DNA of 64,000 nt, taken from the NCBI RefSeq assembly GCF_002850745.1, contig NZ_KZ559472.1, positions 166,313 to 230,312 of the forward strand. Reading direction: 5' to 3'. Shown here piece after piece: positions 12,546 to 42,867 of this stretch (positions within the stretch are counted from its first letter, which is position 1; each line of letters begins with the position of its first letter). A program made the position numbers and the translations under genes. This stretch comes from Nonomuraea indica. Its GTDB lineage: Bacteria > Actinomycetota > Actinomycetes > Streptosporangiales > Streptosporangiaceae. The notes beneath the pieces were generated by a model. The model was not told the DNA's origin. It saw only the letters and a program-made list of their open reading frames with translations, and ran no database searches.

Positions 12546-13664
12546 ATGGCAAGGGGACGGATCGGTGTCGGGGACTGGGCGATCGCCGTCGGCGTGGCGA
12601 CGGTCCTGCTGGTGACCGGGCTGTCCGGGCATCATCCCGTCACGGATCTCGGCCCGCTGGGCTACGCGCTGCTGCTGGCCGGCGCCCTGTCGCTGGCGGC
12701 GCACCGCCTGGCTCCGGTCGCGGTGCTGGCCGTGACCGGAGTGTCCGTGCTGGGCCACCAGGCCGTCGGCCTGGACGTGCCGGCCGTCGCGTACCTGGTC
12801 GCGGTGTACGCCACGGTCCGGGCCGGGCACCGCATCGTCGCGGTGGCGGGCTCGCTGGGCATGATCCTCGCTCTTCCGGTCGTGCTGCTGGCCTCCGCCC
12901 AGGACAGGCTCTTGGGGGAGGCGTTCACGCACAGCCGGGACATCCTCCAGGTGGCCTGGCTGGTCGCCGCCGGGGCGGCCGGGGAAGCGCTGCGGCAGGC
13001 CGAGCGCCGGGCCGACGAGGCCGAACGTACCCGGGAGGAGACCGCGCGGCGCCGCGCCGACGAGGAGCGGCTGCACATCGCGCGGGAGTTGCACGATTCG
13101 CTCACCCACCAGATCTCCGTCATCAAGGTGCAGGCCGAGGTCGCCGTCCACGTCGCCCGCAGGCGGGGCGAACAGGTGCCGGAGGCTCTGCTGGCGATCC
13201 GGGAGGCCGGTCGTGAGGCGGCCCGGGAGCTGCGCGCGACGCTGGAGGCGCTGCGCGACGACACCGGGAGCCCGCCGCATGGGGTCGAGCAGGTCCCGGC
13301 GCTGGTGGAACGCGCCCGGACGACCGGCCTGGACGCGACGCTGACGATCGGGGGCCACCGCGACGACGTGCCGGTCGCGGTGGACCGGACCGCTTACCGG
13401 ATCGTTCAGGAGTCGCTGACCAACATCGCCCGGCACGCCGCCGCCACCACCGCGTCGGTCCGGATCGACTACCGTCCCGACGCCGTCGTCATCCGGGTCG
13501 ACGACGACGGCAAGGCCAGACCGGACACCGCCCTGGTGCCCGGCGTCGGGCTGCTCGGGATGCGCGAACGGGTCACCGCGCTCGGCGGTCGCCTGCGGGC
13601 GGAACCACGCGGCGAGGGCGGCTTCACCGTCCAGGCCGAACTTCCCGTGGAGCGCCCGTCATGA
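12546..13664 (+). CDS. Sensor histidine kinase, NarL-type (HisKA_3)
   Basis: 372 residues. Four or five N-terminal membrane segments (about 12-125) form a sensor without an extracellular domain. A short coiled coil (ALRQAERRADEAERTREETARRRADEE) leads into the dimerisation helix with phospho-acceptor His183 in ARELHDSLTH. The ATPase domain has the N box (VQESLTNIARHA), G1 (VDDDG) and G2 (GVGLLGMRERV). The stop overlaps the ATG of the response regulator (ATGA), giving a coupled two-component system. The signal is unknown; location next to the stress-gene island may be functional. Confidence 0.95.
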   Translation: MARGRIGVGDWAIAVGVATVLLVTGLSGHHPVTDLGPLGYALLLAGALSLAAHRLAPVAVLAVTGVSVLGHQAVGLDVPAVAYLVAVYATVRAGHRIVAVAGSLGMILALPVVLLASAQDRLLGEAFTHSRDILQVAWLVAAGAAGEALRQAERRADEAERTREETARRRADEERLHIARELHDSLTHQISVIKVQAEVAVHVARRRGEQVPEALLAIREAGREAARELRATLEALRDDTGSPPHGVEQVPALVERARTTGLDATLTIGGHRDDVPVAVDRTAYRIVQESLTNIARHAAATTASVRIDYRPDAVVIRVDDDGKARPDTALVPGVGLLGMRERVTALGGRLRAEPRGEGGFTVQAELPVERPS

Positions 13665-14323
13665 TCCGCGTCCTGCTGGCCGACGACCAGCCGCTCATCC
13701 GCAGCGGATTCCGCGCGCTCCTCGACCTCGAAAGCGACATCCAGGTGGTGGCCCAGGCCTCCAACGGCGCCGAGGCCCTCGCCCTGGCCCGCGAACACCT
13801 GCCCGACATCGCGCTCATCGACATCCAGATGCCCGTCGTGGACGGCATCGAGGCGACCCGGCGCATCGCCGCCGACCCAGCCCTGGCAGGGGTGCACGTC
13901 GTCATCCTGACCAACTACGGCCTGGACGAGTACGTGCTCAACGCGCTGCGCGCCGGCGCCGCCGGGTTCCTCGTCAAGGACATCGTGCCGGAGGACTTCC
14001 TGCACGCCGTACGCGTCGCCGCGCGCGGCGACGCCCTGCTCGCCCCGTCGATCACCCGGCAGCTGATCAACCGGTACGTCACCCAGTCGCCCGACATCGG
14101 CACCCGGGCGGTGCTGGAGGAGCTGACCAACCGCGAACGCGAGGCCGTCGCCCTGGTCGCGCGGGGCCTGTCCAACGACGAGATCGCCGCTCACATGGTG
14201 ATCAGCCCGCTGACCGCGAAAACCCACGTCAACCGGGCCATGGCGAAGCTCCACGCCCGCGACCGCGCCCAGCTCGTGGTCATCGCCTACGAGTCCGGGC
14301 TGGTGAGCCCGCGCGACTCCTGA
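13661..14323 (+). CDS. NarL/LuxR-type response regulator
   Basis: 220 residues. The receiver domain (1-120) has the acidic pair DDQ, phospho-acceptor Asp54 in LIDIQMP, Thr in ILTNYG and Lys in FLVKD. The C-terminal LuxR helix-turn-helix is at about 148-210 (LTNREREAVALVARGLSNDEIAAHMVIS, then TAKTHVNRAMAKLHARDR). It overlaps the kinase gene by four bases. The family commonly regulates membrane stress or transport. It is the nearest candidate regulator for the DosR-like sites downstream, although its DNA-reading helix is not especially DosR-like. Confidence 0.95.
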   Translation: MIRVLLADDQPLIRSGFRALLDLESDIQVVAQASNGAEALALAREHLPDIALIDIQMPVVDGIEATRRIAADPALAGVHVVILTNYGLDEYVLNALRAGAAGFLVKDIVPEDFLHAVRVAARGDALLAPSITRQLINRYVTQSPDIGTRAVLEELTNREREAVALVARGLSNDEIAAHMVISPLTAKTHVNRAMAKLHARDRAQLVVIAYESGLVSPRDS

Positions 14324-14350: not shown

Positions 14351-14617
14351 TCACCGTTCGTCGACGGGCCCGCCCAGCCGGGCGACGTCGTCCACGGCGT
14401 CGCCGATCAGCTTGTCGGCCAGGTCCATCAGCGCCCGACCGGCCGCCAGCTCGTCGCCGATCTCCGGCACCGGGCGGTCGTGCGGGTTGCGCCGGGCGAC
14501 CCCCACGCTCTCGTGCCACTTGCTGCCCAGGGCGTACAGGACGGCGCGCGCCTGCGTGCGCTCGTCGCCGTCGTCCTCGCTGATGTAGATCTGCACGGTC
14601 CACTGCTTGGCCTGCAT
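14351..14617 (-). CDS. DUF1876 family protein (Rv1738-like)
   Basis: 88 residues (MQAKQWTVQIYISEDDGDERTQARA...) matching PF08962, with the SKWHESVGVARRNPHDRPVPEIGDELAAGRAL core. The mycobacterial relative Rv1738 belongs to the DosR dormancy regulon and structurally resembles ribosome-hibernation factors. The ATG at 14617 has GGGGGAG upstream; an upstream start at 14650 would add a tail not seen in the family. A GGGAC half-palindrome lies 41 bp upstream of the start, and more complete DosR-like sites lie further along, which fits stress control. Confidence 0.9.
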   Translation of the reverse strand: MQAKQWTVQIYISEDDGDERTQARAVLYALGSKWHESVGVARRNPHDRPVPEIGDELAAGRALMDLADKLIGDAVDDVARLGGPVDER

Positions 14618-14657
14618 GACTCCCCCTCGCTGCTCCCCTGACACCAGCATCCGCCGA

Positions 14658-14671
14658 GGGACGGGCCCTTG
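14658..14671. promoter_or_regulatory. DosR-like half palindrome before DUF1876
   Basis: GGGACGGGCCCTTG: the left arm GGGAC is perfect for the DosR/DevR core (GGGAC-TWWA-GTCCC) but the right arm is poor. It is about 41 bp upstream of the DUF1876 start. Confidence 0.3.
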
Positions 14672-14798
14672 ACCACCCCGGTGTGACGGACCGGCGGCCC
14701 GCCGAACCCGGAGAGGTGGACGGCGCCACCCGGGCCGTCCACGATCTCGTAGCCGCGCGCCGGCCCAGCCGCGTGGGCGGCTGCGGAGCCCGCGGCAA

Positions 14799-14812
14799 GG
14801 GTCGAAGGTCCC
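14799..14812. promoter_or_regulatory. DosR-like palindrome before the integrase-N-domain gene
   Basis: GGGTCGAAGGTCCC has a perfect right arm (GTCCC) and one mismatch in the left arm of the 14-nt DosR core. A GGGAC half site follows 22 bp later (14821). It is about 105 bp upstream of the GTG at 14915 and 180 bp upstream of the divergent DUF1876 gene. Confidence 0.5.
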
Positions 14813-14914
14813 GGCTGCCGGGGACCTGAGCGGGTGCCGCCCCGCCCCCTGTCTCCCCTAACGTCATCCCGGGGAACCCCGGCCCCTGCCTCCGCCACCC
14901 GAAGGGAGTGCCTC

Positions 14915-15250
14915 GTGCCCTCACGGACCACGCCGCCTCCGCTCCCGGCGCCCTACGACAGGATGCTGTCGGCGTACGCCGCCGCGCTGGCCGGCTCCCG
15001 GCTGGCCGGGTCCAGCCGGGTCACGTACCTGTCCCGCACCCGGCGCTTCCTCGCCTGGACGGCCGGAACTGCGGCCGGCGACCCGCGCCCGCTCGCCGAG
15101 ATGGCCGCGGCCGCGCGGACGGCCCGCGCCTACCGTCTCCACCTGGAGGGAGGCGGTTACGCCCGGGGCACGATCGCCAACCATCTCATCGCGATCGAGG
15201 ACTTCTTCGCCCGCACGGGGCTCGGCTCGACCGGCCTGCGCCGGAGCTGA
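14915..15250 (+). CDS. Integrase SAM-like N-terminal domain protein, no catalytic domain
   Basis: 111 residues. The sequence (YDRMLSAYAAALAGSRLAGSSRVTYLSRTRRFLAWT ... ANHLIAIEDFFARTGL) is the core-binding, SAM-like N-terminal domain of tyrosine recombinases. It stops where the catalytic domain should begin, and no R-K-HxxR-Y sequence follows in any frame before the next gene. It is either a remnant or a stand-alone DNA-binding protein; good codon use, the AAGGGAG site six bases before the GTG, and a DosR-like upstream site favour an expressed gene. A longer frame from 14834 lacks this ribosome site. Confidence 0.7.
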   Translation: MPSRTTPPPLPAPYDRMLSAYAAALAGSRLAGSSRVTYLSRTRRFLAWTAGTAAGDPRPLAEMAAAARTARAYRLHLEGGGYARGTIANHLIAIEDFFARTGLGSTGLRRS

Positions 15251-15274
15251 CGAGCCGCCCCGGCTCCGGTGGAA

Positions 15275-15288
15275 AGGACTTTGGTCCC
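15275..15288. promoter_or_regulatory. DosR-like palindrome before the PPOX gene
   Basis: AGGACTTTGGTCCC, inside AAGGACTTTGGTCCCT, matches the 14-nt DosR core with 12 of 14 positions, including both GGAC and GTCCC arms. It lies about 70 bp upstream of the ATG at 15357, a typical activator position. Confidence 0.6.
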
Positions 15289-15356
15289 TGTTCCGGGCAC
15301 CGCACCCGCCACCATCATGTTGGAGTGAACTCGACCTACATGGGCGGATCGTCGAG

Positions 15357-15779
15357 ATGACGTCCCGCGATCTCGAAGAACTGTCAACGGCGGAGGCGCT
15401 GCGCCTGCTGGCCGGGGTGCCGATCGGCCGCATCGTGTTCACCCGGCACGCGCTCCCCGCGATCCGGCCGGTGAACTACCTCGTCGCCGACGGTCAGATC
15501 GTCATCCGGTCCAATCCGGGCACCGTGCTGAGCACGGAGGTGGCGCCGTCGGGCTCGGTGGTGGCGTTCGAGGCCGACGAACTGGACGCCGAACGCCGCC
15601 TGGGCTGGAGCGTGATCGTCACCGGCGTGGCCCGGCTGGTGGACGACCCGGAGGAGGCGGCGCGCTACAAGGCGAGGCTGCGCCCGTGGGTGGCGGGGGA
15701 GATGGACCAGGTGGTCCGCATCAGCCCCGAGATCGTCACAGGTTTCCGCCTGCGCCCCGCCTCACCCGCACTCACCTGA
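15357..15779 (+). CDS. PPOX-family flavin-binding protein (PF12900-like)
   Basis: 140 residues with the split barrel: LLAGVPIGRIVFTRHALPAIRPVNY, then GQIVIRSNPGT, VVAFEADELD and GWSVIVTGVARLV, ending with a C-terminal ITGFRL-like strand (IVTGFRLRP). This is the pyridoxamine-5'-phosphate-oxidase-related, flavin-nucleotide-binding group that is frequent in actinobacterial stress regulons. The ATG at 15357 follows GGGCGGATCGTCGAG. A DosR-like palindrome lies 70 bp upstream. It is convergent with the two-TM gene, 31 bp apart. The substrate is unknown. Confidence 0.9.
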   Translation: MTSRDLEELSTAEALRLLAGVPIGRIVFTRHALPAIRPVNYLVADGQIVIRSNPGTVLSTEVAPSGSVVAFEADELDAERRLGWSVIVTGVARLVDDPEEAARYKARLRPWVAGEMDQVVRISPEIVTGFRLRPASPALT

Positions 15780-15810
15780 CCCCCGCCGCCGCACCCCCCA
15801 CCACGCTCGC

Positions 15811-16305
15811 TCACGCCCGGCGGCCGTCCCCGTCGGCGAGCAGCCAGGCCGCCGTGGCCGTCAGCGCCGCGCCCGATCCGGTCAGCAGCGTTCCAAGGCC
15901 GATGACCAGCGTCGTGACCTCCCACGCCTGGTAGGCGTTCAGCAGCGAGGCGCGCAGCATCTGACCGGTGAACGCGGTCTGCCGCAGCGCCGCGAGCTTC
16001 TCGTCCGTGCCCCCGGCGGCCATCAGGTCGGCGCTGACCTGGGCGTAGGTCCGGCCGCCCGTCGCCGTCCGCACGTTGCCCTCGATCATCTGCGCGTACC
16101 GGCGGGCCTCGGGCCCCGTCAGCACCTCCCTGCCCGCGTCGGCGTCGTGTCCCTTGTCCGGAAAGGTGATCGACTGCGCGCGCAGCTCGGCCTGGATCTC
16201 GGCCCGCCCCTTCCGGCCTCGGACCACCATGACCGGGCCCGCGGCCAGCATCGACGCACCGGCGGCACCCAGCAGCGCCACCGCCGTCCTCCGGACAACA
16301 CTCAT
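15811..16305 (-). CDS. Two-TM hypothetical protein with periplasmic-side loop
   Basis: 164 residues: an N-terminal membrane helix (about 7-30), a soluble 85-residue loop with alternating charged residues (TFPDKGHDADAGREVLTGPEARRYAQMI), and a C-terminal hairpin (about 117-160) rich in Gly, Ala and Leu. AAGGAG lies seven bases before the ATG, which decides the start over an upstream one at 16383. It is divergent from the universal stress gene; a pair of DosR-like sites lies between them. I recognise no named family; similar proteins of unknown function occur in actinobacterial stress clusters. Confidence 0.75.
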   Translation of the reverse strand: MSVVRRTAVALLGAAGASMLAAGPVMVVRGRKGRAEIQAELRAQSITFPDKGHDADAGREVLTGPEARRYAQMIEGNVRTATGGRTYAQVSADLMAAGGTDEKLAALRQTAFTGQMLRASLLNAYQAWEVTTLVIGLGTLLTGSGAALTATAAWLLADGDGRRA

Positions 16306-16376
16306 CTCCCACTCCTTCCGGCGGCCGCTCTTCGGGGCCGCTCTACGAGTCTTGGAGCAGCGGCCGCCCGGCGTGA

Positions 16377-16412
16377 GGGCCACTGGTCCCGGCGAAACGG
16401 CCCGAAGGTCCC
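16377..16412. promoter_or_regulatory. Tandem DosR-like palindromes, 22 bp apart
   Basis: GGGCCACTGGTCCC (16377-16390) and GGCCCGAAGGTCCC (16399-16412) each have a perfect right arm (GTCCC) with one or two mismatches in the left arm. The 22-bp (two-turn) spacing matches paired DosR dimers. They lie between the divergent two-TM gene and the universal stress gene, so both may be controlled. Confidence 0.6.
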
Positions 16413-16508
16413 GCGTGAGCGCACGGGAAGGCTCCGACGCGGCTGCCCGGCGACATGCGCTACTGAGCCGGTGCCCTTCGGGTAGTGGTCGTGGTGGGAG
16501 GCGAATGC

Positions 16509-17339
16509 ATGATGGCTGGTCAGATCGTGGTGGGTGTGGACGGGTCCGCGCCGGCGACCGCTGCCGTGGAGTGGGCGGCGGCCGACGCCGGGAGACGCCG
16601 GCTCGGCCTGAGGCTGGTGCACGTGTGCGAGCAGTGGACGCCCGAACGGGGGGAGCCGGAGCACTGCGCCGGGGCGTTGGAGGCCGCCGCCGGCAGGGCG
16701 CGCACGCTCGCCCCGGGGGTGGACGTGGGCACCGAGATGCTGACGGGCCGGGTGATCAACACCCTGGTGGCGGCGTCGGCCGCGGCCGACAGCCTGGTCG
16801 TGGGGAGCCGGGGTCTCGGCGGGTTCGCCCAGCTGATCCTCGGCTCGACCAGCCTGGCCCTGGCCGGGCACGCCGCCGGGCCGGTGGTGATCGTACGCGA
16901 GGGGGAGATGGCCCGCCACGGGGAGATCGTGGTCGGCGACGACGGGTCGGAGCCCGCGAAGGCGGCCGTGGAGTACGCCGTCGAGCAGGCCCGCGCCCGC
17001 GACGCGCGACTGCGCGTGGTGTACGCCTGGCAGGCGCCGCTGCTGGCGCCGTACGCCGCCGCCTACAGCGTGCTGGACGACGAGGACTACCGGCAGGCGT
17101 CCCAGGCGGCGGCGCAGCGCGTGCTCGCCTGGCGGGAGCGGGCCCCGGACGTGTCGATCGCCGACGACCAGGTGTGCGACCATCCCGTCGCCGCGCTGAT
17201 GAAGGCGGCGGCCACGGCGGACCTGGTGGTGGTCGGCGCACGCGGGCTCGGCGGGTTCGCCTCCACCGTGCTGGGGTCGGTCAGTCACGGCGTGCTGCAC
17301 CACGTGACGTGCCCGGTCGCGGTGGTACGGCCGCGCTAG
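16509..17339 (+). CDS. Tandem universal stress protein (two USP domains)
   Basis: 276 residues made of two UspA domains (about 1-135 and 137-276). Each starts with IVVG(V/D)DGS and ends with the ATP-binding G-2x-G-9x-G(S/T) motif: GSRGLGGFAQLILGSTS and GARGLGGFASTVLGSVS. This is the ATP-binding subfamily, like the DosR-regulated mycobacterial proteins Rv2005c and Rv2623. GGGAGG lies seven bases before the first of two adjacent ATG codons (16509, 16512). Paired DosR-like sites are about 100 bp upstream. It probably acts in slow-growth or hypoxia adaptation. Confidence 0.95.
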   Translation: MMAGQIVVGVDGSAPATAAVEWAAADAGRRRLGLRLVHVCEQWTPERGEPEHCAGALEAAAGRARTLAPGVDVGTEMLTGRVINTLVAASAAADSLVVGSRGLGGFAQLILGSTSLALAGHAAGPVVIVREGEMARHGEIVVGDDGSEPAKAAVEYAVEQARARDARLRVVYAWQAPLLAPYAAAYSVLDDEDYRQASQAAAQRVLAWRERAPDVSIADDQVCDHPVAALMKAAATADLVVVGARGLGGFASTVLGSVSHGVLHHVTCPVAVVRPR

Positions 17340-24303: not shown

Positions 24304-26811
<2,508 letters not shown>

Positions 26812-26844
26812 GTGTGTAGATCCTTTTCTGATGTACGGCTGTCG

Positions 26845-28884
<2,040 letters not shown>

Positions 28885-29638: not shown

Positions 29639-30136
29639 TCAGCCGTAGGTGTCGCCGGGGCCCTTGCTGCCCCGCACCCGCAGGCCGCCCGAGCGGGGCC
29701 CGTGCTGGGGACCCCGCACCTTGACCCGGGTCACCGTGCCGTCGCCGAGCTCCTCGTTGAGGCGGCGGACGAGGGTGCGGGCGAGCAGGCGCACCTGCGT
29801 GGCCCACGCCGTGGAGTCGGCCGAGACGATCACCTCGCCGTCCTCGAACGTCTCCGGCTTGGTGTGGGCGGCCAGGTCGGGACCGACGATGTCGGCCCAC
29901 CGGCCGAACACGCCGCCCACGGCCGCCGACCGCTGCCAGCCCCGGTCGGCCAGCAGGTCCATGATGGCGCGCCCGAACAGCTGGGGATCGCCGCCCTCAC
30001 GACGCGGACCCGCCGCCCTGCGTCTCGGCTCGCGGCGGGGGAGCTGCCCGCGCCGGGCGGCGTCGGCCTTGGCCTGGGCGAGCTTCTCCCTGGCCATGGC
30101 CGCCCCGCGGGCCGTGGGGTTGTCGTCAGCGGACAC
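29639..30136 (-). CDS. DUF721 (DciA-like) protein
   Basis: 165 residues. A basic disordered N-terminus ([15 protein letters not shown]) is followed by the DUF721 domain ([46 protein letters not shown], then [20 protein letters not shown]). DciA/DUF721 proteins load or recruit the replicative helicase DnaB where DnaC is absent, which fits the location next to recF and dnaN. The start overlaps the end of recF by 11 bp, a conserved actinobacterial arrangement (Rv0004 in mycobacteria). Confidence 0.9.
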
Positions 30137-31358
30137 GGGTCACTCTCCCCTCTGCGACGTCGAACCTGGCCCCGGCCAGCTCGGGGGGCACGTCGTCGGG
30201 CACGGCGGCGGTGATGAGCACCTGCTCGGCCGGCGCCACGATCTCGGCGAGGCGGCGTCGGCGCTGGCTGTCGAGCTCGGCGAAGACGTCGTCGAGGATG
30301 AGCACCGGGTCGCCGCCGTCGGCGCGCAGCAGGTCGTAGGCCGCGAGGCGCAACGCCAGGGCGAACGACCACGACTCACCGTGACTGGCGTAGCCACGGG
30401 CGGGCAGGTCGCCGAGGCCGAGGATCAGGTCGTCGCGGTGCGGGCCGACGAGCGTGACGCCACGTTCGAGCTCGGCCGAGCGCATCTCCAATAGCCGCTC
30501 GCGCAGACGTTCTTCAAGGGTTTTCCCCAAGTCTGTGGATAACGTCTGCGCATCGGAAGATCCCGTCTCACCGGGGGTTTCTTCCTCAGCCGTGTCCCCG
30601 CCTGTGGACAACGTGCTCCGATAGGCGAGGCTCGCGGGGGCGCTCGTGGGGGCCAGGGCGGCGTAGGCTCCGGCGACCAGCGGCCGCAGCGCCTCGACGA
30701 GATCGAGGCGGGCCCGCAACAGCTCGGCGCCGTGCCGCGCCAGATGGGCGTCCCAGACCTCCAGAGTGCTCGTCACGTCGCCCGCGCCCGCCGCCGCGAA
30801 CCCGGAGTCACCCTCGGCCCTACGGGCGCTCCTGGAGCCTCTACGGGCCTGCGCGGCGGTGCGCAGCAGGGCGCTGCGTTGTTTGAGCACCCGGTCGTAG
30901 TCGGCCCGCACGCCGGCGAACCGCGGCGTCCTGGCCACCAGCAGGTCGTCGAGGAAGCGCCGCCGCTCCGACGGGTCGCCCTTGGCCAGCGACAGGTCCT
31001 CGGGGGCGAACAGGACCGTGCGCAGCAGGCCGATGACGTCGCGGGGCCGGGAGACGGGGGAGCGGTTGAGCCGCGCGCGGTTGGCCCGGCCGGGGTTGAT
31101 CTCAAGCTCGACCAGGGCCCGCCGGTCGTCCCTGTGGACGGCGCAGCGCACGATCGCCCGGCTCGCGCCCTGCCGCACGAGCGGCGCGTCGGTCGCCACC
31201 CGGTGGCTGGACTGCGTCGCGACGTAGCCGAGGGCCTCGACCAGGTTGGTCTTGCCCTGGCCGTTGGGCCCCACGAACGCCGTGACACCCGGCTCCAGGC
31301 CGAGCTCCACGGAGGCGTAGGACCGGAAGTCGGTCAGCGACAGGTGGGCGACATGCAC
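30126..31358 (-). CDS. recF: DNA replication/repair protein RecF
   Basis: 410 residues. Walker [11 protein letters not shown] (about 30-39), ABC signature region [11 protein letters not shown], Walker [12 protein letters not shown]. RecF loads RecA at gaps with RecO and RecR. The stretch [16 protein letters not shown] to [12 protein letters not shown] (about 235-280) is an unusual insertion between the arms of the ABC domain. In DNA it contains two perfect DnaA boxes (30534-30542, 30603-30611). DUF721 overlaps its 3' end. ATG start. Confidence 0.97.
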
Positions 31359-31542
31359 CCCACGAAGGTTAGTCGGCCACGCAGGTCACTGGCACAACCG
31401 GCGGGCCGCCTGTGGAAAACGAGACGGGTCCGCCGCCGGCTTGTGCACAACCGCGCCCGCGCCGGTGGCGTTCCCGTCCTCCACAACCCCGTCCGCAGGG
31501 GCTGTGGACACGCGAAGGGGGACGCGCGGCGCCGTCCCGGTG

Positions 31543-32484
31543 CTACTCGGCCTCGCGCGGCGGGGTGACGTCCGCGCCGGGGGAGTCGGCGCCCTTGGCC
31601 ACGGAGCCCTCGGCCGCGGCCGTCGCGTGCCCGCCGAACTGGTTGCGCAGCGCCGCGACCACCTTCATCGCGGGCGAGTCGTCCTGGCGTGAGGCGAACC
31701 TGGCGTACAGCGCGGCGGTGATCACCGGCAGCGGGACGGCGTGGTCCACGGCCGCCTGGACGGTCCACCGGCCCTCGCCGGAGTCCTGGGCGTAGCCGCG
31801 CAGCCGCTCCAGGTGCTCGTCGTCGTCCAGCGCGCGCACCAGCAGGTCGAGCAGCCACGACCGGATCACCGTGCCGGTGCGCCAGCTGCTGAACGACCCC
31901 TTGACGTCCTTGACGACGTCGGAGGCCTCCAGCAGCTCCCAGCCCTCGGCGAAGGCCTGCATCATGCCGTACTCGATGCCGTTGTGGACCATCTTCGCGA
32001 AGTGCCCGGCGCCGACGTCGCCGGCGTGGACGAAGCCGTCCTCGCCCTCGGGCTTGAGCGTCTCGAAGATCGGCATCAGACGGTCCACGGTGGCCTTGTC
32101 GCCGCCGCACATGAGCGCGTAGCCGTTCTCCAGGCCCCAGACGCCGCCGCTCACCCCGCAGTCGACGAAGGAGATCCCCTTGTCGGCCAGCTCGGCGGCG
32201 TGCCGCTGGTCGTCCACGTAGTGCGAGTTTCCGCCGTCGACGACGACGTCACCCTCGCCCAGCAACCGCCCGAGCTCGTCAATCGTGTGCTGGGTGGGCT
32301 CGCCGGCCGGCACCATCACCCACACCGCGCGCGGCGTCTCCAGCCGTTCGACCAGCTCTTTCAGGCTGCCCACGTCGCTGAGCGCCGGGTCGCGGTCGTA
32401 GCCCACCACCTCGTGGCCGCCGCGGCGCAGCCGCTCGGCCATGTTGCCGCCCATCTTGCCGAGCCCGATCATGCCGATCTGCAT
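31543..32484 (-). CDS. gnd: 6-phosphogluconate dehydrogenase, decarboxylating, short form
   Basis: 313 residues of the short NAD-type 6PGDH: Rossmann start MQIGMIGLGKMGGNMAERL, substrate motifs VVDGGNSHYVDD and VDCGVSGGVWGLENGYALMCGG, catalytic Lys/Asn in KMVHNGIEYGMMQ. It converts 6-phosphogluconate to ribulose 5-phosphate with CO2 release in the pentose phosphate pathway. A gnd gene between recF and dnaN is a known actinobacterial arrangement. The last 30 residues are disordered. ATG with TCTCAAGGGGG-type ribosome site upstream. Confidence 0.96.
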   Translation of the reverse strand: MQIGMIGLGKMGGNMAERLRRGGHEVVGYDRDPALSDVGSLKELVERLETPRAVWVMVPAGEPTQHTIDELGRLLGEGDVVVDGGNSHYVDDQRHAAELADKGISFVDCGVSGGVWGLENGYALMCGGDKATVDRLMPIFETLKPEGEDGFVHAGDVGAGHFAKMVHNGIEYGMMQAFAEGWELLEASDVVKDVKGSFSSWRTGTVIRSWLLDLLVRALDDDEHLERLRGYAQDSGEGRWTVQAAVDHAVPLPVITAALYARFASRQDDSPAMKVVAALRNQFGGHATAAAEGSVAKGADSPGADVTPPREAE

Positions 32485-32558
32485 GCTGATCTACCCCCTT
32501 GAGAGCTGCAAGGTGATCTACCCCCCTTGTCAGGGTTCCATCATCTCCGATGGCTTTT

Positions 32559-33704
32559 TCAGCCTGACAGACGGATCGGCATGATCAGGTAGCGGTAGTC
32601 AGGGGCTCCGCCGTCCTCCACAGGCTTGCCTCCGGTGAGGATGGCCGGCTTGGTGGAGGTCGTCATCTGCAGCCGGGCGACGTCGGAGTCGATGGCCCCC
32701 AGCCCTTCGAGCAGGAACTGGTGGTTGAAGGCGATGTTCATCTCCTCGCCGTCGTAGTCCACCGGCAGCACCTCGACGGCCTGCGCCTCGTCGCCGCTGC
32801 CGGCCTCGAGGACGACCTCACCGTTGCGGAACGCCAGCCGTACGGGGGTGTTGCGCTCGGCGACCAGGGCGACGCGCTTGACGGCCTCGACGAACGGGCC
32901 TGTGGACAGGTCGGCCCGGGCGGAGAACTCGGTGGGGAGCAGCGAGCGGTACTTGGGGAACTCGGGGTCGAGCAGCCGCGTGGTGGTGCGCCGCCCGGCG
33001 CTGGAGAAACCGATCATGCCTTCGCCGGTGCCTCCGACGGAGCTGAGGGCGATCTCCACCTCGGCTCCGGTCGAGCCGAGGGCCTTGGCCGTGTCGGCGA
33101 GCGTCTTGCCGGGGATCATGGCGACGGCCGAGAAGTCGGCCTGGCCGGGCTGCCAGCGCAGCTCGCGCACGGCCAGGCGGTAGCGGTCGGTCGCGGCGAG
33201 GGTGACCACGTCGCCCTCGATCTCCATGCGTACGCCGGTGAGCATGGGCAGCGTGTCGTCGCGGCCCGCGGCGACGGCGACCTGGCCGACGGCGGAGGCG
33301 AAGACGTCGCTGCCGACCCGTCCGGCGGCGGGCGGCATGGCGGGCAGCGACGGGTAGTCCTCCACGGGCATGGTCAGGAGGGTGAACCGGGCGCTGCCAC
33401 AGGTGACGACCGCCTTGGCGCCCTCGACGACGACATCCACAGGCTGTGCGGGAAGCGCGCGCGTGATCTCGGCGAGCAGCTTGCCCGAGACGAGGACGAC
33501 TCCGGGCTCGCCGGTGTGGAGCTCGAGCGTCACCTCGGCGGAGACCTCGTAGTCGAAGCCGGACAGCTTCAGCCGCTGCTCGTCGGTGACCTCCAGGCGC
33601 ATGCCGGCGAGGACGGGCACGGACGGACGGGCGGGCAGGCTGCGTGCCGTCCATGCCACCGCCTCAGCGAGGACGTCTCGCTCGATTCGGAACATCACGG
33701 TCAT
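32559..33704 (-). CDS. dnaN: DNA polymerase III sliding clamp (beta subunit)
   Basis: 381 residues, three clamp domains. N-terminus FRIERDVLAEAVAWTARSLPARPSVPVLAGM, C-terminus PDYRYLIMPIRLSG, both standard. The dimer ring encircles DNA and holds polymerase. The start may be ATG 33704 (AGGAGG three bases before), GTG 33698 or ATG 33695 (AGGAGG nine or twelve bases before); the later ones give a more usual spacing. oriC lies directly upstream. Confidence 0.98.
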   Translation of the reverse strand: MTVMFRIERDVLAEAVAWTARSLPARPSVPVLAGMRLEVTDEQRLKLSGFDYEVSAEVTLELHTGEPGVVLVSGKLLAEITRALPAQPVDVVVEGAKAVVTCGSARFTLLTMPVEDYPSLPAMPPAAGRVGSDVFASAVGQVAVAAGRDDTLPMLTGVRMEIEGDVVTLAATDRYRLAVRELRWQPGQADFSAVAMIPGKTLADTAKALGSTGAEVEIALSSVGGTGEGMIGFSSAGRRTTTRLLDPEFPKYRSLLPTEFSARADLSTGPFVEAVKRVALVAERNTPVRLAFRNGEVVLEAGSGDEAQAVEVLPVDYDGEEMNIAFNHQFLLEGLGAIDSDVARLQMTTSTKPAILTGGKPVEDGGAPDYRYLIMPIRLSG

Positions 33705-33719
33705 CAGCCTCCTGAGCTC

Positions 33720-34219
33720 GTTGTCGATTCAAGTTTCGCCCCTCCCGAGCCTCGGGTCCGGGCGAACCCCTCTATGGGTCTTGAGTTCTTTGTAAGAGAG
33801 ATAAGTGGTCATCACACTAGGTTCTGTGGATACTGTGGAAAACCTGTGTTTCCGCAGCTCAGACCGCCTGTTTTTATCCACTGCCCGTGTGGGTGACGCC
33901 TGGGGAGAACTTCGCCGCCTGGGGATGACGATCCGTTGCCCACAGGCCGTCCCCAGATCATGGGCCGTTCATCCACCGGTTATCCACTGGGTTTCAACAG
34001 GTTATCCACGGGGTAAACGCCCTCTCCGGCCGCCCTCTGACGACTGTGCACAGGGCATCCACAAGTCATCCACCGGATGTCCCCAGGTTGTCCGCAGGAT
34101 GTCCCCACCTTTATCCCCAGGCCTTGTGGGCGAAATATCCGGGCATTGTGGGGCGCGAATCGGCCGTCCACGCGCGTTTCCCCTGGTCCACAGTGTTATC
34201 CACAGGCTGTGCATGACGG
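33720..34219. other. Origin of replication (oriC)
   Basis: The dnaN-dnaA gap of about 510 bp has many DnaA boxes. A perfect TTATCCACA lies at 34196-34204; near-perfect boxes include TTATCCACT (33874-33882, 33980-33988) and TTATCCACG (34002-34010). Weaker ones are CATCCACA, GTCATCCACC, TTGTCCGCA, TTATCCCCA and TTGCCCACA at 33940-34115. They occur in both orientations. The least GC-rich part, near 33780-33880, is the probable unwinding element. This is the standard actinobacterial origin position. Confidence 0.95.
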
Positions 34220-35791
34220 CTACGACCCGCGAGTTGTCTGCTTGATGCGCATTGTTAGCTCGTTGACCTGGTTGTACATCGACCTGCGCTCGGCGATGAG
34301 TGACCGGATCTTGCGCTCGGCGTGCATGACCGTCGTGTGGTCGCGTCCGCCGAACTGCTGGCCGATCTTCGGCAGTGACAGCTCGGTCAGCTCCCTCGCG
34401 AGGTACATCGCGATCTGCCGGGCGTTGACGAGCGCCCGGCTGCGCGAGCTGCCGCACAGGTCGTCGATGCTGATGCCGAAGTACTCGGCCGTCTTGGCCA
34501 TGATCGTGGCGATCGTGATCTCCGCGCCCGACTCCGACGTGATCAGGTCCTTGAGCACGACCTCGGCGAGCTGCAGGTCGACGCCCTGCCTGTTGAGGCT
34601 GGCGAACGCCGTCACCCTGATCAGGGCGCCCTCCAGCTCGCGGATGTTGGTGGAGATGCGGCTGGCGATGTACTCGAGCACCTCGGGCGGCGCGGCCAGG
34701 CCCTCCTGGATGGCCTTCTTGCGCAGGATCGCGATGCGGGTCTCCAGCTCGGGCGGCTGGACGTCGGTGATCAACCCCCACTCGAACCGGTTGCGCAGCC
34801 GGTCCTCCAGCGTGATCAGCTGCTTGGGCGCGCGGTCGCTGGAGATGACGATCTGCTTGTTGGCGTTGTGGAGGGTGTTGAAGGTGTGGAAGAACTCCTC
34901 CTGCGTCTGCTCCTTGCCCTCCAGGAACTGGATGTCGTCCACGAGCAGGATGTCGATCGCGCGGTAGCGGCCGCGGAACCCGTCGGCCTTGTGGTCGCGG
35001 ATGCTGTTGATGAAGTCGTTGGTGAACTCCTCGGAGCTCACGTATCTCACCCGTGCGCCGTCGTACAGACTCTGCGCGTAGTGCCCGATGGCATGCAGCA
35101 GGTGCGTCTTGCCCAACCCCGAGTCGCCGTAGATGAAGAGTGGGTTGTACGCCTTCGCGGGGGATTCGGCCACGGCCACGGCCGCCGCGTGCGCGAAGCG
35201 GTTGCTGGCCCCGATGACGAATGTCTCAAATGTGTACTTTTGGTTGAGACGTGCCGGTTCGCTCGGTTTATTGCTCTTGGCTTCCCACCGGTTCGGCGCC
35301 GACTCCGGCGCTTTCTCCACAGCCGGCTGGGCCTGTTCAAAAGAGAATCCGGGCTGTGGATATTCGGTGGACGACGGGCCCGGCTCCGCCTGTGGAGAGT
35401 AGAACTGCGGGGGCTCCGAAGCCTGGAAATGCTGGGGTGACGCGGGCTGTGCATAACGTGGCTGCTGCTCCGGACCCTGGGGATAACCTTGACCCACAGG
35501 CTGTGGATGAACATCCGGAGCGGGCTGCTCGGGGGCCGTCGTGTCGATCATCACGGCCAGCCGCATGGCCTTGCCGAGCTCCTGTGACAGCGCGTGGGCC
35601 ACGAGCGGGCGCAGCTTGCCCTCGATGAGGTCCTTGAGGAAGTCGTTGGGGACGCCCAGCACGATCGTGTCGCCGGCCAGCGCGATCGGCCGGACCATGG
35701 ACAGCCATGTGCGCTGCTGGATGGGCACGTTCTCGTTGAGGAAGTTGCCCAGCGCCCTCGACCAGACGGCGGCGAGGTCGACAGCGTTCAT
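34220..35791 (-). CDS. dnaA: Chromosomal replication initiator DnaA
   Basis: 523 residues from an ATG with AAGGGAG nine bases upstream. Domain I (1-90) binds DnaB/other partners; a Pro/Gln-rich domain II (about 95-195) contains [14 protein letters not shown]; domain III AAA+ (about 195-400) has Walker [12 protein letters not shown], Walker [14 protein letters not shown] and arginine finger region RLRNRFEWG; domain IV has the DnaA-box helix [15 protein letters not shown]. It opens oriC. The domain II coding DNA holds several near-consensus DnaA boxes (TGTGGATAT near 35355, TGTGCATAA near 35448, TGTGGATGA near 35502). The frame is open up to 36010, but the start at 35791 matches the family. Confidence 0.98.
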
Positions 35792-36275
35792 GGCGCGGCT
35801 CCCTTTCCCTTCTTTTCGCGGCCCCCCGCGATCGTTTATCCACACCGGGCACTGCCCGTGTGCCGATCGGCCCCGCCCGTCCACAGCGTGCTGCCGGGGC
35901 TTCGCCCCCACGGCATCCACAGGAGATCCACAGGATGTCCACAGCCCGGGGGTGGCCCCGAAGAGGCCGACAGTAGCCATGTGCACACCTGTGTACAAGA
36001 CGTTGTCCACAGCCTAGTGGTAGCCGCGTGCACATACTGTGGACACGGCGGGGGCGGTGGAAAACCCGCATGTGGATACGTGGATAACCTCGCGGGCGGC
36101 CGGCCGGGACGGCGGGCGGGAAGTGCGCCGGTTTGACCTCGGCGGTGGTTGACCCGTAACGTACGACGGTCGGCTTGCCACGCGACGGCTATTTCGCGTG
36201 CCCTCGCTCCCCTGGCAGGCCAGCCATGTGTGTTGAAGCGCCCCCGTGGCGCACCATCAAGCCTGGAGCCCACCC
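35792..36275. other. dnaA-rpmH intergenic region with a second DnaA-box cluster
   Basis: 484 bp without a gene. DnaA boxes: perfect TTATCCACA at 35836-35844, perfect TTGTCCACA at 36003-36011, and near-matches GATCCACAGG, TGTCCACAGC, TGTGGACAC, TGTGGATAC and GTGGATAAC up to about 36090. Likely used for dnaA autoregulation or as part of a bipartite origin. The rpmH promoter is in the right third. Confidence 0.9.
36133..36162 (+). promoter_or_regulatory. Promoter of rpmH-rnpA operon
   Basis: TTGACC (36133-36138) and TAACGT (36157-36162) with an 18-bp spacer, 115 bp before the rpmH start. This is the best sigma-70-like (SigA/HrdB) match in the region. Confidence 0.65.
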
Positions 36276-36413
36276 GTGAGCAAGCGTACTTTCCAGCCGA
36301 ACAACCGTCGCCGCGCGAAGACCCACGGCTTCCGGCTGCGGATGCGCACCCGGGCCGGTCGCGCCATCCTGGCCGCTCGTCGCCGCAAGGGCCGCGAGAA
36401 GCTGTCGGCCTGA
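36276..36413 (+). CDS. rpmH: 50S ribosomal protein L34
   Basis: 45 residues ([18 protein letters not shown] ... [17 protein letters not shown]), complete. GTG start with GGAGCCC upstream. L34 is a late-assembly protein of the large ribosomal subunit. It is followed by rnpA after a hairpin, the universal rpmH-rnpA order at the origin. Confidence 0.99.
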
Positions 36414-36435
36414 TCGCCCTGCGCCAGATAGCCCC

Positions 36436-36462
36436 GCCCGTCGGTGACATCCACCGGCGGGC
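36436..36462 (+). other. Hairpin between rpmH and rnpA
   Basis: An 11-bp stem with one G-U pair (GCCCGTCGGTG with CACCGGCGGGC) and a five-base loop. No T tract, so it is more likely an attenuator or processing site that lowers rnpA expression relative to rpmH. Confidence 0.7.
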
Positions 36463-36487
36463 AATAGGCGCATGAGGTGCAATTGCT

Positions 36488-36850
36488 GTGCTGTCCCGAC
36501 ATTCCCGCATGCGGCGCGGGGAGGAATTTCAGGCGGCCATCAAGCGCGGCAAACGCGCAGGCCGTCCCACTTTGGTGGCACATCTCAGCGTTTCCGGGGA
36601 TGAGGCGCCACGGGTCGGATTCGTGGTCAGCCGGGCCGTAGGGGGCGCCGTGGTCCGCAACAAGGTCAAGCGTCGGCTTCGACACCTGATGCGAGACCGT
36701 CTCGACCGGCTGCCGCGAGGTAGCCTGCTTGTGGTACGCGCCAATCCACCGGCCGCGTCAGCGCGATCCGAGCACCTTGCCGCCGAGCTCGACCTCGCAT
36801 TGGATCGTCTGCTGAGGCGGCGCGAGTCCGCGACGGATGGACACAGATGA
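36488..36850 (+). CDS. rnpA: Ribonuclease P protein component
   Basis: 120 residues. The conserved basic helix is [22 protein letters not shown], after VGFVVS; N-terminus [24 protein letters not shown]. It binds RNase P RNA and helps cleave tRNA 5' leaders. GTG start. The stop overlaps the yidD ATG (ATGA). Confidence 0.98.
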
Positions 36851-37125
36851 CGGAGCAGCCGCAGGGGATGCCGAGCCTCGCCGCTCGGGCACTCATCGTC
36901 CCCATCCGGTTCTACCGGGCGTTCATCAGCCCGATGCTCGGTCCACGCTGCCGGTTCTACCCGTCGTGCAGCGCCTACGGGCTCGAGGCGATCGCCGTAC
37001 ACGGAGCATTGCGCGGCACATGGCTGACTGCCCGGCGTATCGGGCGGTGCCACCCATTCCATCCCGGAGGTATAGACCCGGTGCCCCCACGCCCGGTTCG
37101 GTCCCACGAATTGCAAGGGAGATAG
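36847..37125 (+). CDS. yidD: Membrane protein insertion efficiency factor YidD
   Basis: 92 residues with the family signature [20 protein letters not shown], then [13 protein letters not shown] and [17 protein letters not shown]. Three cysteines are conserved. It assists YidC-dependent insertion. Overlaps rnpA by four bases and precedes yidC by five. Confidence 0.98.
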
Positions 37126-37129
37126 CTCG

Positions 37130-38080
37130 GTGGAGCTGTCCTGGCTCAGCTGGCTCTATGCAGCCGTCGCCCAAGTCATCATCTGGATCCATACCGGATT
37201 CAGCACGTTCCTGAACCCGGACGGCGGCCTGACCTGGGCGCTGACGATCATCACGCTGACCGTGTTCATGCGGGTGCTCATCTTCCCGCTGTTCCTCAAG
37301 CAGATGCGCTCGTCGCGGAAGATGCAGGAGCTCGCCCCCAAGGTCGCGGAGCTGCGCAAGCGCTACAAGAACGACAAGCAGCGCATGAACCAGGAGGTCA
37401 TGGCGCTGTACCAGGGCGCGGGCGCCAACCCCCTCGGCGGGTGCCTGCCCATTCTGGCACAGTTCCCGATCTTCATCTCGATGTTCACCGTGCTGCAGGC
37501 GATGGCCAACGGCGAGCCCAAGTGGGGGATGACGCAGGAGCTCGTCGACAGCGCCCGCAAGGCCCACATCTTCGGCGCGCCGCTGCCGGCCAACTTCTTC
37601 ATGTCGTCGGCCGACATCGAGGGCTTCGACGCCGGCGTCGTGCAGACGAAGGTCGTGCTCGCCATCTTCGTGGCCATCAGCTCGCTGACCACGTTCCTCA
37701 CCGTCCGGCAGAGCGTCACGCGCTCCATGGCCCAGATGCCGGACAACCCCATGGCGCAGCAGCAGAAGATCCTCATGTACATCTCTCCGCTGTTCGCCTT
37801 CTTCAGCCTGAACTTCCCGCTCGGTCTGATCCTCTACTGGGTGACCACCAACGTGTGGACGCTCGGCCAGCAGCACTGGTTCTACAGCCGTCACCCGATG
37901 CCCGAGTTCGACGCCAAGGGCAACGTGGTCCCCGCCAAGCCCAAGCCCGGCCTGCTGGGCAAGATTCGCGGCACCACCCCCGAGGAGCAGGCGCCTCCCC
38001 CGCCGCCGGAGCCTAAGATCATCAGGCAGCAGCCCAGCCGCCAGCCCCGCAGCAAGCGCACCGGCAGCAAGAAGTCGTGA
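37130..38080 (+). CDS. yidC: Membrane protein insertase YidC
   Basis: 316 residues, the short Gram-positive form without a signal peptide. Five membrane segments; the hydrophilic groove Arg is in LIFPLFLKQMRSSRKMQEL. Motifs: GANPLGGCLPILAQFPIFISMF and SPLFAFFSLNFPLGLILYW. The C-terminal tail is basic (QPRSKRTGSKKS), as in ribosome-binding YidC proteins. GTG start after GGGAGATAGCTCG. It inserts membrane proteins with SecYEG or alone. Confidence 0.98.
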   Translation: MELSWLSWLYAAVAQVIIWIHTGFSTFLNPDGGLTWALTIITLTVFMRVLIFPLFLKQMRSSRKMQELAPKVAELRKRYKNDKQRMNQEVMALYQGAGANPLGGCLPILAQFPIFISMFTVLQAMANGEPKWGMTQELVDSARKAHIFGAPLPANFFMSSADIEGFDAGVVQTKVVLAIFVAISSLTTFLTVRQSVTRSMAQMPDNPMAQQQKILMYISPLFAFFSLNFPLGLILYWVTTNVWTLGQQHWFYSRHPMPEFDAKGNVVPAKPKPGLLGKIRGTTPEEQAPPPPPEPKIIRQQPSRQPRSKRTGSKKS

Positions 38081-38100
38081 ACACGAAGGAGAGGCCGGCC

Positions 38101-38589
38101 ATGACCGAGGCCGAGCAGGACAAGGCTCCTGATCTCACCGCACTCGAGCAGGAGGGTGAGATCGCGGCCGACTACGTCGAGGGGCTTCTCGACATCGCCG
38201 ACATCGACGGCGACATCGACATGGACGTCGAGGGCGACCGCGCGCTCGTCTCCGTCGTCGGCGTCAAGGGCAACGAACTGGTCGGGCCCGGTGGCGAGGT
38301 GCTGGAGGCCCTGCAGGAGCTGACCCGGCTGGCCGTCCACCGGCAGACGGGGGAGCGGTCGCGGCTCATGCTCGACGTCGCGGGTTATCGCGAACGGCGG
38401 CGCGCCGAGCTGACCAAGCTCGGCACCGAGGTCGCGGAGCAGGTCCGGGACAAGGGCGAACCCAAGTCGCTCAAGCCCATGACCCCCTTCGAGCGCAAGA
38501 TCGTCCACGACGCGGTGGCCGCCGCCGGGCTCCGGAGCGAGTCCGAGGGTGAGGAGCCGCAGCGTTACGTGGTGGTCTTCCCCGCCTGA
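38101..38589 (+). CDS. jag: Jag/KhpB-type RNA-binding protein (KH-R3H)
   Basis: 162 residues: a KH-like domain (DYVEGLLDIADIDGDIDMDVEGDRALVSVVG, GxxG as VGPGGEVLEALQELTRLA) and an R3H domain (RLMLDVAGYRERRRAELTKLG ... LKPMTPFERKIVHDAVAAA). KhpB-like proteins bind RNA and act in cell division and elongation. ATG 38101 has AAGGAGAGG upstream; a GTG at 38077, overlapping the yidC stop, is an alternative. The conserved yidC-jag-rsmG order is kept. Confidence 0.96.
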   Translation: MTEAEQDKAPDLTALEQEGEIAADYVEGLLDIADIDGDIDMDVEGDRALVSVVGVKGNELVGPGGEVLEALQELTRLAVHRQTGERSRLMLDVAGYRERRRAELTKLGTEVAEQVRDKGEPKSLKPMTPFERKIVHDAVAAAGLRSESEGEEPQRYVVVFPA

Positions 38590-38609
38590 CCACCTGCTCG
38601 GTACTCCCA

Positions 38610-38652
38610 CGAACGGCCGTCAGCCCCGGTGCCCGGGACTGACGGCCGTTCG
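38610..38652 (+). terminator. Strong hairpin after jag
   Basis: A perfect 14-bp stem (CGAACGGCCGTCAG with CTGACGGCCGTTCG), whose loop CCCCGGTGCCCGGGA pairs further. It lies 21 bp after the jag stop and probably ends the rpmH-jag operon; no T tract. Confidence 0.8.
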
Positions 38653-39100
38653 CGTACGACCCTTGAGGACCGGCGATGCCCGGCGTGCGATCCCTGTGAC
38701 CGGCGGTGGCTGGCGTGCGATCCCTGGGGCCGCGTCGGCTCGCGGACGGCCCCAAGGACCGGCGGCGACCGGTGTGCGACCCCTGCGACGGACGGTGGTT
38801 CGCGTGCGACCTGGGACCGGCGGCGGCTCGCGTGCGGCCTCAGGGCCCAGGGGCGTTCGCGCACGACCTGGGACCGGTGGCGGCTCGCGTGCGGCCTCAG
38901 GGCCCAGCGGGCTTTCGCGCACGACCTCCGGCGCGGGCGTCGGTTGGCGTACGACCTCCGGCATGGGGCGTCGGTTGACGTACGGCTCTCAGGGCCGGCG
39001 TCGGCCGGCGTACGGCGATGGGGTCGGCGTCGGTTGGCGTGTGGCCGTCAACTTTGGCAGTCGTACGCGTACGGCACGAATGGGGAGGGTCGCGACGCCG
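38653..39100. repeat. Degenerate direct repeats in the jag-rsmG gap
   Basis: A 57-bp unit is present twice in tandem (38809-38865, 38866-38922) with about 90% identity. Around it many shorter degenerate copies of ACCGGCGGCGGCTCGCGTGC and CGTCGGTTGGCGTACG occur. The whole 790-bp gap (38590-39381) shows no real gene; open frames follow the GC bias. Confidence 0.8.
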
Positions 39101-39381
39101 CCGTACGCCCCCCACTCGGACAGCCGACCGCGGGTGTCCCGGCGGGAGCGGGAGTGCCCCGCCGGGCGGGGGCGGGGAGCCCCGGCGGTACGCGCGAGTG
39201 GGTGGCACCCGCTGGTCGTCCGGCGCGGTCCCACGCCCTAGCCTTGAGTGGGACACCGTCCCGGACCGCCCCCGGCGCGGCCCTTGACAGCCCGGCACCG
39301 GGGCCGCCCGGACACCGGTCAGTCAGCCTGTGCCGGCGAGCGTCATTCAGCGACCACGAACCCGAGAAAGGCCATCGACCA

Positions 39382-40053
39382 GTGAGCGAAGAGCTGCCTG
39401 CTCCGCCCGACATCGCCAGGGACGTCTTCACCGGCGAGGCGTGGGAGCGAGCGAACGCCTTCGCCGAGCTCCTGGCGGGAGCCGGGGTCGTCCGCGGACT
39501 GCTCGGCCCGCGGGAGGTGCCGCGCATCTGGGACCGCCACCTTCTCAACTGTGCCGTCGTCGCCGAGGCCGTTCCCCCGGACGTGCACCTCGTCGACATC
39601 GGCTCGGGTGCCGGTCTGCCCGGGCTCGTGCTGGCGATCGTCCGGCCGGATATCACGGTCACGCTGCTGGAGCCGCTGCTTCGCCGTACCGTATATCTGG
39701 AGGAGTGCGTGGACGCGCTCAAGCTGGACAACGTCGAGGTGCTGCGCGGCAGGGCGGAGGAGCTGGCCGGCAAGCGGGAGTTCGACGTCGCCAGCGCGCG
39801 TGCCGTCGCCCCGCTCGACCGGTTGCTGAAGTGGGCCATGCCGTTGCTCCGCGAGGGCGGCGAGCTGATCGCCATGAAGGGGGAACGCGCCGCGGAGGAG
39901 CTGGCCGAGGCCGGGCCCCAGCTACGGGCGAGCGGAGCCAAGACGGCCGAGCTTGTCACCGTCGGGCGCGGTAAGGTCGAGCCGCCCGCAACATTGGTTC
40001 GGGTGGTAGCGGGTCGCGCGCCGGAGACCGGTAGGCGGCGACGAAGGAGGTGA
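39382..40053 (+). CDS. rsmG: 16S rRNA (guanine527-N7)-methyltransferase
   Basis: 223 residues from GTG (family start SEELPAPPDIARDVF; GAAAGG upstream). Signature motifs: GVVRGLLGPREVPRIWDRHLLN, SAM site LVDIGSGAGLPGLVLA, LLEPLLRRTVYLEE, and RAVAPLDRLLKWAMPLL. It methylates G527 of 16S rRNA; loss gives low-level streptomycin resistance. The C-terminus is basic (GRRRRRR). The longer open frame upstream is not part of the protein. Confidence 0.97.
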   Translation: MSEELPAPPDIARDVFTGEAWERANAFAELLAGAGVVRGLLGPREVPRIWDRHLLNCAVVAEAVPPDVHLVDIGSGAGLPGLVLAIVRPDITVTLLEPLLRRTVYLEECVDALKLDNVEVLRGRAEELAGKREFDVASARAVAPLDRLLKWAMPLLREGGELIAMKGERAAEELAEAGPQLRASGAKTAELVTVGRGKVEPPATLVRVVAGRAPETGRRRRRR

Positions 40054-40058
40054 CGGTT

Positions 40059-41120: not shown

Positions 41121-41639
41121 GGGAGACGGCCAGCCAGTCAGGTGGCTTCCGCTCAGGGGATGACCCCGGCTGGAGCGGACGGTCGTGACTGCCTGCTCCC
41201 ACGGGCGAGGGCCGACTTCACCGCCACCACCGCCGATGATCAGATCCGCTCGGAAGGCGAGCGGACTTTTCGGCTCTGTGCTGTCGCGAGGCTCGCGTCC
41301 GCAGTGGACCGGGCGACCTGCTGTCAGCGCGTGCCCGCCACCGGATCTCCCGGTCGCGCAGCACTGCCAAGGCCTCGTCGACCCGCCGCGCGCGTCTCTG
41401 GCTTCTTCGCGCTGTCGATGGCGAGCAGCTGTTCGCGCTTGCGGCTGTGGGCCAGGCGGTCGTACGCGCGGCGCGGCCGGGGCGGATGGCTCACCTCGGA
41501 AGCGGGCGGGACGGGGTGTGCGGGGCCGTCGTGGTGTAAATCCGACACGCGCCCGTGTGGCGAGGCGGCACCCGGCTGCGTTCACGACGGTAACCTTCCC
41601 TGGAGTGACCGGAATCGGCCGGGTGGATGAGGAGACGCA
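41121..41639. other. 519-bp gap between parA and parB, no gene seen
   Basis: Overlapping open frames on both strands lack ribosome sites and recognisable families; composition is GC-rich, low-complexity. The parB promoter must be here. The gap is unusually long for a parAB pair. Confidence 0.65.
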
Positions 41640-42664: not shown

Positions 42665-42708
42665 TCGCCTGCGGAGGCGTCCGGCCGGGCCCTGTGGTTC
42701 AGTGCCCC

Positions 42709-42867
42709 CGCCGCCCGCCGCCCGCCGCCCGCCGCCCGCCGCCCGCCGCCCGCCGTCGGCTCTGCCCTCATCTCTGACCCGTGACCCGTGACCCGTGACC
42801 CGTGACCCGTGACCCGGGGCCGTGACCCGTGACCCGGTCATGCGCCGCCTGTCGCCTGTCGCCTGTC
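42709..42867. repeat. Three 7-bp-period microsatellites
   Basis: CCGCCGC repeated seven times (42709-42757), GTGACCC repeated about seven times with one interruption (about 42774-42836), and GCCTGTC repeated three times (42847-42867). All three have a 7-bp period but different units. They lie between parS sites 3 and 4 in the 379-bp gap after parB, which holds no gene. Confidence 0.92.

Follow-up and report, generated by a model that had tools for sequence, protein, structure and literature searches.

In S. coelicolor, the box consensus of the OsdKR system (SCO0203/SCO0204) is AGGGCCGATCGGCCCT and the sites of OsdR include the exact 14-mer GGGACCTTCGGCCC. The SCO5978-5979 region, which contains GGGACCTTCGGCCC, was bound by OsdR in electrophoretic mobility shift assays (PMC5069765). 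We analyzed a locus with boxes of this type in Nonomuraea indica: a gene island at positions 14351-17339 of a 64,000-bp window (G000:C7:166313-230312) of the 8.29-Mb genome, which is in 58 contigs. Judged from its sequence, the island is very probably a satellite of the DosR/OsdR (DevR) hypoxia regulon of this genome, with DevR acting at four boxes. The island carries DUF1876 (−), integrase-N (+), PPOX (+), two-TM (−), and a tandem USP (+), in that order, where integrase-N is a standalone integrase core-binding domain, two-TM is a protein with two transmembrane (TM) segments, and USP is a universal stress protein. Box scores below are from a matrix to which only sites beyond the window contributed.

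14351-14617, minus strand: DUF1876/Rv2632c-like (Rv1738-type) small protein, 88 amino acids (aa); PF08962, E = 2.7e-26
14799-14812, no strand: DosR box GGGTCGAAGGTCCC, between DUF1876 and integrase-N, 188 bp from the DUF1876 start and 109 bp from the integrase-N start; score 16.9
14915-15250, plus strand: integrase-N, standalone tyrosine-integrase core-binding (SAM-like) domain protein, 111 aa, GTG start; PF02899, E = 1.2e-4
15275-15288, no strand: DosR box AGGACTTTGGTCCC, ~75 bp before PPOX; score 16.8
15357-15779, plus strand: PPOX/pyridoxamine-5'-phosphate-oxidase-like flavin protein, 140 aa; PF12900, E = 1.5e-26
15811-16305, minus strand: two-TM membrane protein, 164 aa, unnamed conserved family; no Pfam or NCBIfam model
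16377-16390, no strand: weaker DosR box GGGCCACTGGTCCC, 78 bp before two-TM and 125 bp before USP; score 7.0
16399-16412, no strand: DosR box GGCCCGAAGGTCCC, 100 bp before two-TM and 103 bp before USP; score 10.7
16509-17339, plus strand: tandem universal stress protein, 276 aa; PF00582 in two stretches, E = 1e-50

A preliminary description of this DNA had named the same genes. Pfam matches agreed with its DUF1876, integrase-N, PPOX, and tandem USP calls, and the starts of two-TM (16305) and integrase-N (GTG, 14915) were corrected.

Comparison with described systems

The OsdKR regulon has the same type of box and shares USP, PPOX, nitroreductase, nitrate reductase, and hemerythrin as targets (PMC5069765). 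The N. indica system differs in that its boxes favor an A/T core (YWWR), that the genome has two copies of DevR and one DosS, and that integrase-N and two-TM are unnamed in the printed table of OsdR targets (PMC5069765). The likeness to the M. tuberculosis DosR/DevR regulon lies in the orthologous regulator, the haem-GAF sensor, and the USP and Rv1738/DUF1876-type targets; the difference lies in the content of the island and its two extra members. The M. tuberculosis DosR gene list is not known to include a standalone integrase core-binding domain. Rv2659c of M. tuberculosis, the phiRv2 integrase, is a prophage integrase that is comparable to integrase-N in its link to dormancy. This integrase gene product is named among dormancy-associated proteins (PMC9436120).

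Among tyrosine recombinases of the XerC/XerD type, the N-terminal core-binding domain is homologous to integrase-N, which is 44-49% identical to full-length relatives in the same bacterial family. Unlike these enzymes, integrase-N lacks the catalytic domain bearing the nucleophilic Tyr, a domain that is ubiquitous in the tyrosine recombinase family (PMC8138268), belongs to a separate clade, and stands under hypoxia boxes. A literature search found no paper describing hypoxic control of an integrase domain that stands alone, and of literature joining Nonomuraea and DosR none was found on this island.

The DosR boxes

The four 14-mers, at 14799, 15275, 16377, and 16399, have the coordinates and letters originally described. 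The boxes at 14799 and 15275 scored as strong and those at 16399 and 16377 as moderate. The 603 bp of intergenic DNA in the island held 2 sites scoring at least 15; over 2000 first-order shuffles, such sites averaged 0.003. The 22-bp spacing noted for 16377 and 16399 holds and is the preferred one. Specifically, among 182 distinct strong boxes across all fetched loci, neighbors up to 100 bp apart showed a spacing peak at 22 bp: of 81 pairs, 28 were spaced by 20-24 bp and 17 by exactly 22. A weaker fifth site, proposed at 14658, scored −23 and was rejected as a box.

That the 14-mers are G+C-rich palindromes arising by chance is scarcely credible. The point in favor of chance is that the relaxed consensus shows no excess of occurrences: GGGACNNNNGTCCC occurs 52 times in the window versus 104 expected, and 442 times in the genome versus 437 for the reversed control. 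The box signal is visible only with an A/T-rich core and by position, and the DosR layout claimed for these sites stands in that form while the bare consensus does not. Against chance stand the enrichment by position, the clustering, the conservation across species, and the 22-bp pairing. The core-restricted motif RGGNCNWWGGTCCC occurs at 17 places in the genome, 14 of them intergenic; the reversed pattern occurs at 15, of which 1 is intergenic (Fisher p = 1.9e-5). Five places of RGGNCNWWGGTCCC fall inside 23 kb on contig C3 and pairs occur on contig C1 and in the window, whereas the reversed pattern is unclustered.

The closest relative, G148, keeps the order DUF1876, integrase-N, PPOX, and two-TM. 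Box 14799 lies within an intergenic block that is conserved in this genome, box 15275 is identical, and box 16377 is exactly conserved. The 14-mer of box 16399 is found on the other strand, and the two-TM gene of G148 is preceded by both boxes of the 16377/16399 pair. The OsdR 14-mer GGGACCTTCGGCCC occurs both in the N. indica genome and upstream of the integrase-N gene of G148. Within the conserved block, at 14807-14826, the right arm of box 14799 and a downstream half-site also form an inverted repeat (AGGTCCCGGCTGCCGGGGACCT).

Genes downstream of boxes elsewhere in the genome are of hypoxic and anaerobic kinds by Pfam. Their products include USP (contigs C3 and C18), CBS-BON proteins, a P-type ATPase, cytochrome bd, nitroreductases, NarK (ahead of narGHJI), phosphoketolase, a zinc alcohol dehydrogenase, hemerythrin, Hsp20, a multicopper-oxidase/cupredoxin protein, flavodoxin, and pyruvate-formate-lyase. 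The expectation that motif hits would precede other stress genes was borne out by the genome pattern search, whose hits were mostly intergenic and ahead of classic hypoxia genes. Overall, the genome-wide placement of the boxes and the DevR/DosS pair described below strongly support the original DosR/DevR-regulon reading. The regulon to which the island belongs is a known one, and what is new in it is the apparently domesticated integrase domain together with the two-TM family, which has no name.

The regulator

DevR is encoded at C3:283219-283857. Its best match in the PDB is M. tuberculosis DevR (3c3w, E = 3e-80), with which its recognition helix, AEKTVKNYV, is identical. Residues K179, K182, and N183 of DevR contact DNA (PMC5999986). 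The haem-GAF kinase DosS is encoded at C3:281079-282767, and in its GAF-A domain, which can be aligned with crystal structures of DevS (E = 1e-53), the proximal His and the distal Tyr are retained. The roles of the haem-ligating His and distal Tyr have been described for DevS (PMC4082495). A cluster of boxes at C3:257-280 kb adjoins this DosS/DevR pair. A second DevR (C25:36623-37261, locus L151) is 95% identical to the copy on C3, has a box just upstream, and lies near pyruvate-formate-lyase genes. It has no neighboring DosS, and the genome contains one DosS-like kinase. The two DevR copies, one of them beside a haem-GAF DosS, bear out an earlier hedge that a separate DosR might exist elsewhere.

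The two-component system adjacent to the island (12546-14323) had been put forward as a candidate regulator. It is the immediate neighbor of the boxes and is of the NarL type, with a LuxR/GerE output domain (PF00196) in its response regulator. We nevertheless consider it most unlikely that this system binds the boxes, having rejected it on helix, identity, and domain content. The best PDB match of its response regulator, at 13661, is VraR (1.4e-40), the match to DevR being merely 3.5e-28. The protein shares 33% identity with the DevR of C3, and of the three DNA-contact residues its helix, SPLTAKTHV, keeps only K182, the equivalents of K179 and N183 being missing. Because of this low identity and the loss of two-thirds of the contact residues, we conclude that the adjacent system is not the regulator. 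Moreover, its kinase has only HisKA_3 and HATPase_c domains, with no haem-GAF, and the boxes of other genomes and contigs go with DevR and not with the adjacent system.

Based on orthology, DosS would sense the loss of oxygen and phosphorylate DevR. DevR is then predicted to bind at 14799, at 15275, and at the 16377/16399 pair, and this binding would turn on PPOX, USP, two-TM, integrase-N, and probably DUF1876.

The standalone integrase domain

Integrase-N appears, from sequence comparisons, to stem from a single recruitment, within the genus, of a core-binding domain that was then kept as a hypoxia gene. Standalone integrase-N proteins of 104-138 aa were found in 14 of 55 genomes of the genus. 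Across 343 genomes of the family, the standalone type was confined to the genus (160-189 bits versus at most 141 for others). The 14 proteins form one clade (support 100/99) apart from 19 full-length integrases, and share about the same C-terminal end. The stretches searched around the 14 genes contained no remnant of a catalytic domain, and the positive controls were detected. Pairwise ratios of nonsynonymous to synonymous substitution (dN/dS) were 0.25-0.61, and the comparison indicates that integrase-N is under purifying selection.

The proposal that integrase-N is a new regulon member agrees with the settings of the standalone clade, which are DosR boxes or nitrate-reductase, cytochrome-bd, and denitrification operons. 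A box lies within 200 bp upstream of 7 of the 14 standalone genes versus 0 of 19 full-length relatives (p = 8e-4). The other seven are in operons after cydB, narI, a nitronate monooxygenase gene, a radical-SAM gene, or a two-TM gene. At locus L240, the box follows the end of a hemerythrin gene and precedes the start of integrase-N, and can therefore serve integrase-N only. In the neighborhoods of 13 integrase-N genes, 28 strong boxes were counted over 233 kb, compared with 1 over 247 kb in 13 stretches of the same genus taken as controls. All 14 integrase-N genomes have DevR, compared with 42 of 55 overall (hypergeometric p = 0.012, uncorrected for phylogeny).

The domain has a net charge of +1 to +10, which fits DNA binding. 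As a conjecture, integrase-N is most likely a small DNA-binding accessory protein. We give even chances to a fuller account, in which the catalytic half was lost and the domain was domesticated once in the genus, yielding a DosR-controlled, hypoxia-induced DNA-binding protein that may be a nucleoid or transcription accessory factor or a blocker of recombinases in dormancy. In another genome of the genus, G167 (L307:9122-9478), integrase-N starts with the N-terminal residues of two-TM (MSAVR.AAAILLGA), as if a deletion had fused both genes.

The two-TM membrane protein

The two-TM protein is, from the conservation of its gene and upstream boxes, a long-conserved membrane protein and a probable member of the hypoxia regulon. 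It matched no Pfam or NCBIfam model. Of 121 genomes sampled from the bacterial family, 37 had homologues, and a pattern scan found more in Streptomyces, Planobispora, Actinomadura, Actinoplanes-like genomes, Actinospica, and others. The nearest named homologues, at ~70% identity, are from Nonomuraea. The suggestion that two-TM is a new regulon member was upheld in two sets of loci, which partly overlap in species. In the first, 28 family loci, 17 had boxes within 300 bp upstream, against a mean of 0.8 and a maximum of 7 for permuted matrices; in the second, 76 named loci, 30 did, against a mean of 2.2 and a maximum of 11. Many of the boxless genes are inside operons, for example behind narI, and two-TM is often found beside nitrate reductase, nitroreductase, and denitrification genes. 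All 12 genomes of the genus that bear two-TM also have DevR.

The AlphaFold model of two-TM (predicted local distance difference test, pLDDT, 95.5) is a small helical domain flanked by two long helices. A fold search of the PDB gave no match at E ≤ 0.001. At L103, L106:1210-1755, and L107:630-1166, small proteins are encoded next to the two-TM gene. They are reminiscent of M. tuberculosis Rv1733c, and the two that were run had no Pfam match.

DUF1876, PPOX, and the weighing of the evidence

PPOX-like genes, recognized by their N-terminal sequence, also lie behind boxes at L083, L153, L156, and L159. DUF1876 is the least certain target of the island because its box is 188 bp away and because boxes were found upstream of its orthologues in just 9 of 29 other loci. 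In the same-genus genomes G003 and G101, which are without DevR, the DUF1876 locus has no box.

The distance of the DUF1876 box and the count of 9 in 29 weigh against the regulon and recruitment interpretations, as do the following. Box 16377 scores low by itself, and the search pattern was prompted by the window's own sites, the tests being made on other loci and genomes. In the closest relative, the USP gene is outside the island (L295). The 7 of 14 integrase-N genes without a box of their own depend on the operon argument. Finally, the structure model of integrase-N is poor (pLDDT 60), and the PDB search, in which one profile search used an alignment with one row in the wrong frame, gave no match backing DNA binding.

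Some of the evidence bears on whether integrase-N is instead a decaying prophage remnant that lies by chance behind a box serving DUF1876. A decayed remnant was our first judgement, since the homologues outside the genus in a family-wide sample were mainly full-length, boxless integrases (among the matches listed); the genus search overturned it. The Pfam support for integrase-N is also weak, just above the curated cut-off of PF02899, and DUF1876 diverges from the same box. A remnant would nonetheless have to account for 14 standalone copies in one clade with a common C-terminal end, with no catalytic remnant near any copy and the dN/dS values given above. The L240 box can serve integrase-N alone, and several copies are inside nar operons. 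We therefore regard decay as unlikely and favor recruitment of the domain into the hypoxia regulon.

Neighboring features of the window

The island is ~20 kb from dnaA, near the replication origin. By gene order and N-terminal sequence, the origin region extends over 29639-42602 and contains a DUF721-like gene, recF, dnaN, dnaA (34220-35791), rpmH, yidC, jag, rsmG, parA, and parB. The gyrB/gyrA genes are at 24304-28788, by the origin region. Intergenic arrays of short tandem repeats occur at 42707-42836 and 45368-45782, with 7-bp units (CCCGCCG and TGACCCG) and units of 14 and 40 bp.

Implications

With this island, the DosR/OsdR dormancy regulon reaches a further genus of Actinobacteria and gains two testable candidate members. 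Integrase-N would be a clear case of a DNA-binding domain from a mobile element recruited into a hypoxia program. The two-TM family, which many Actinobacteria encode behind these same boxes, could indicate that a membrane function in anaerobic survival has been overlooked.

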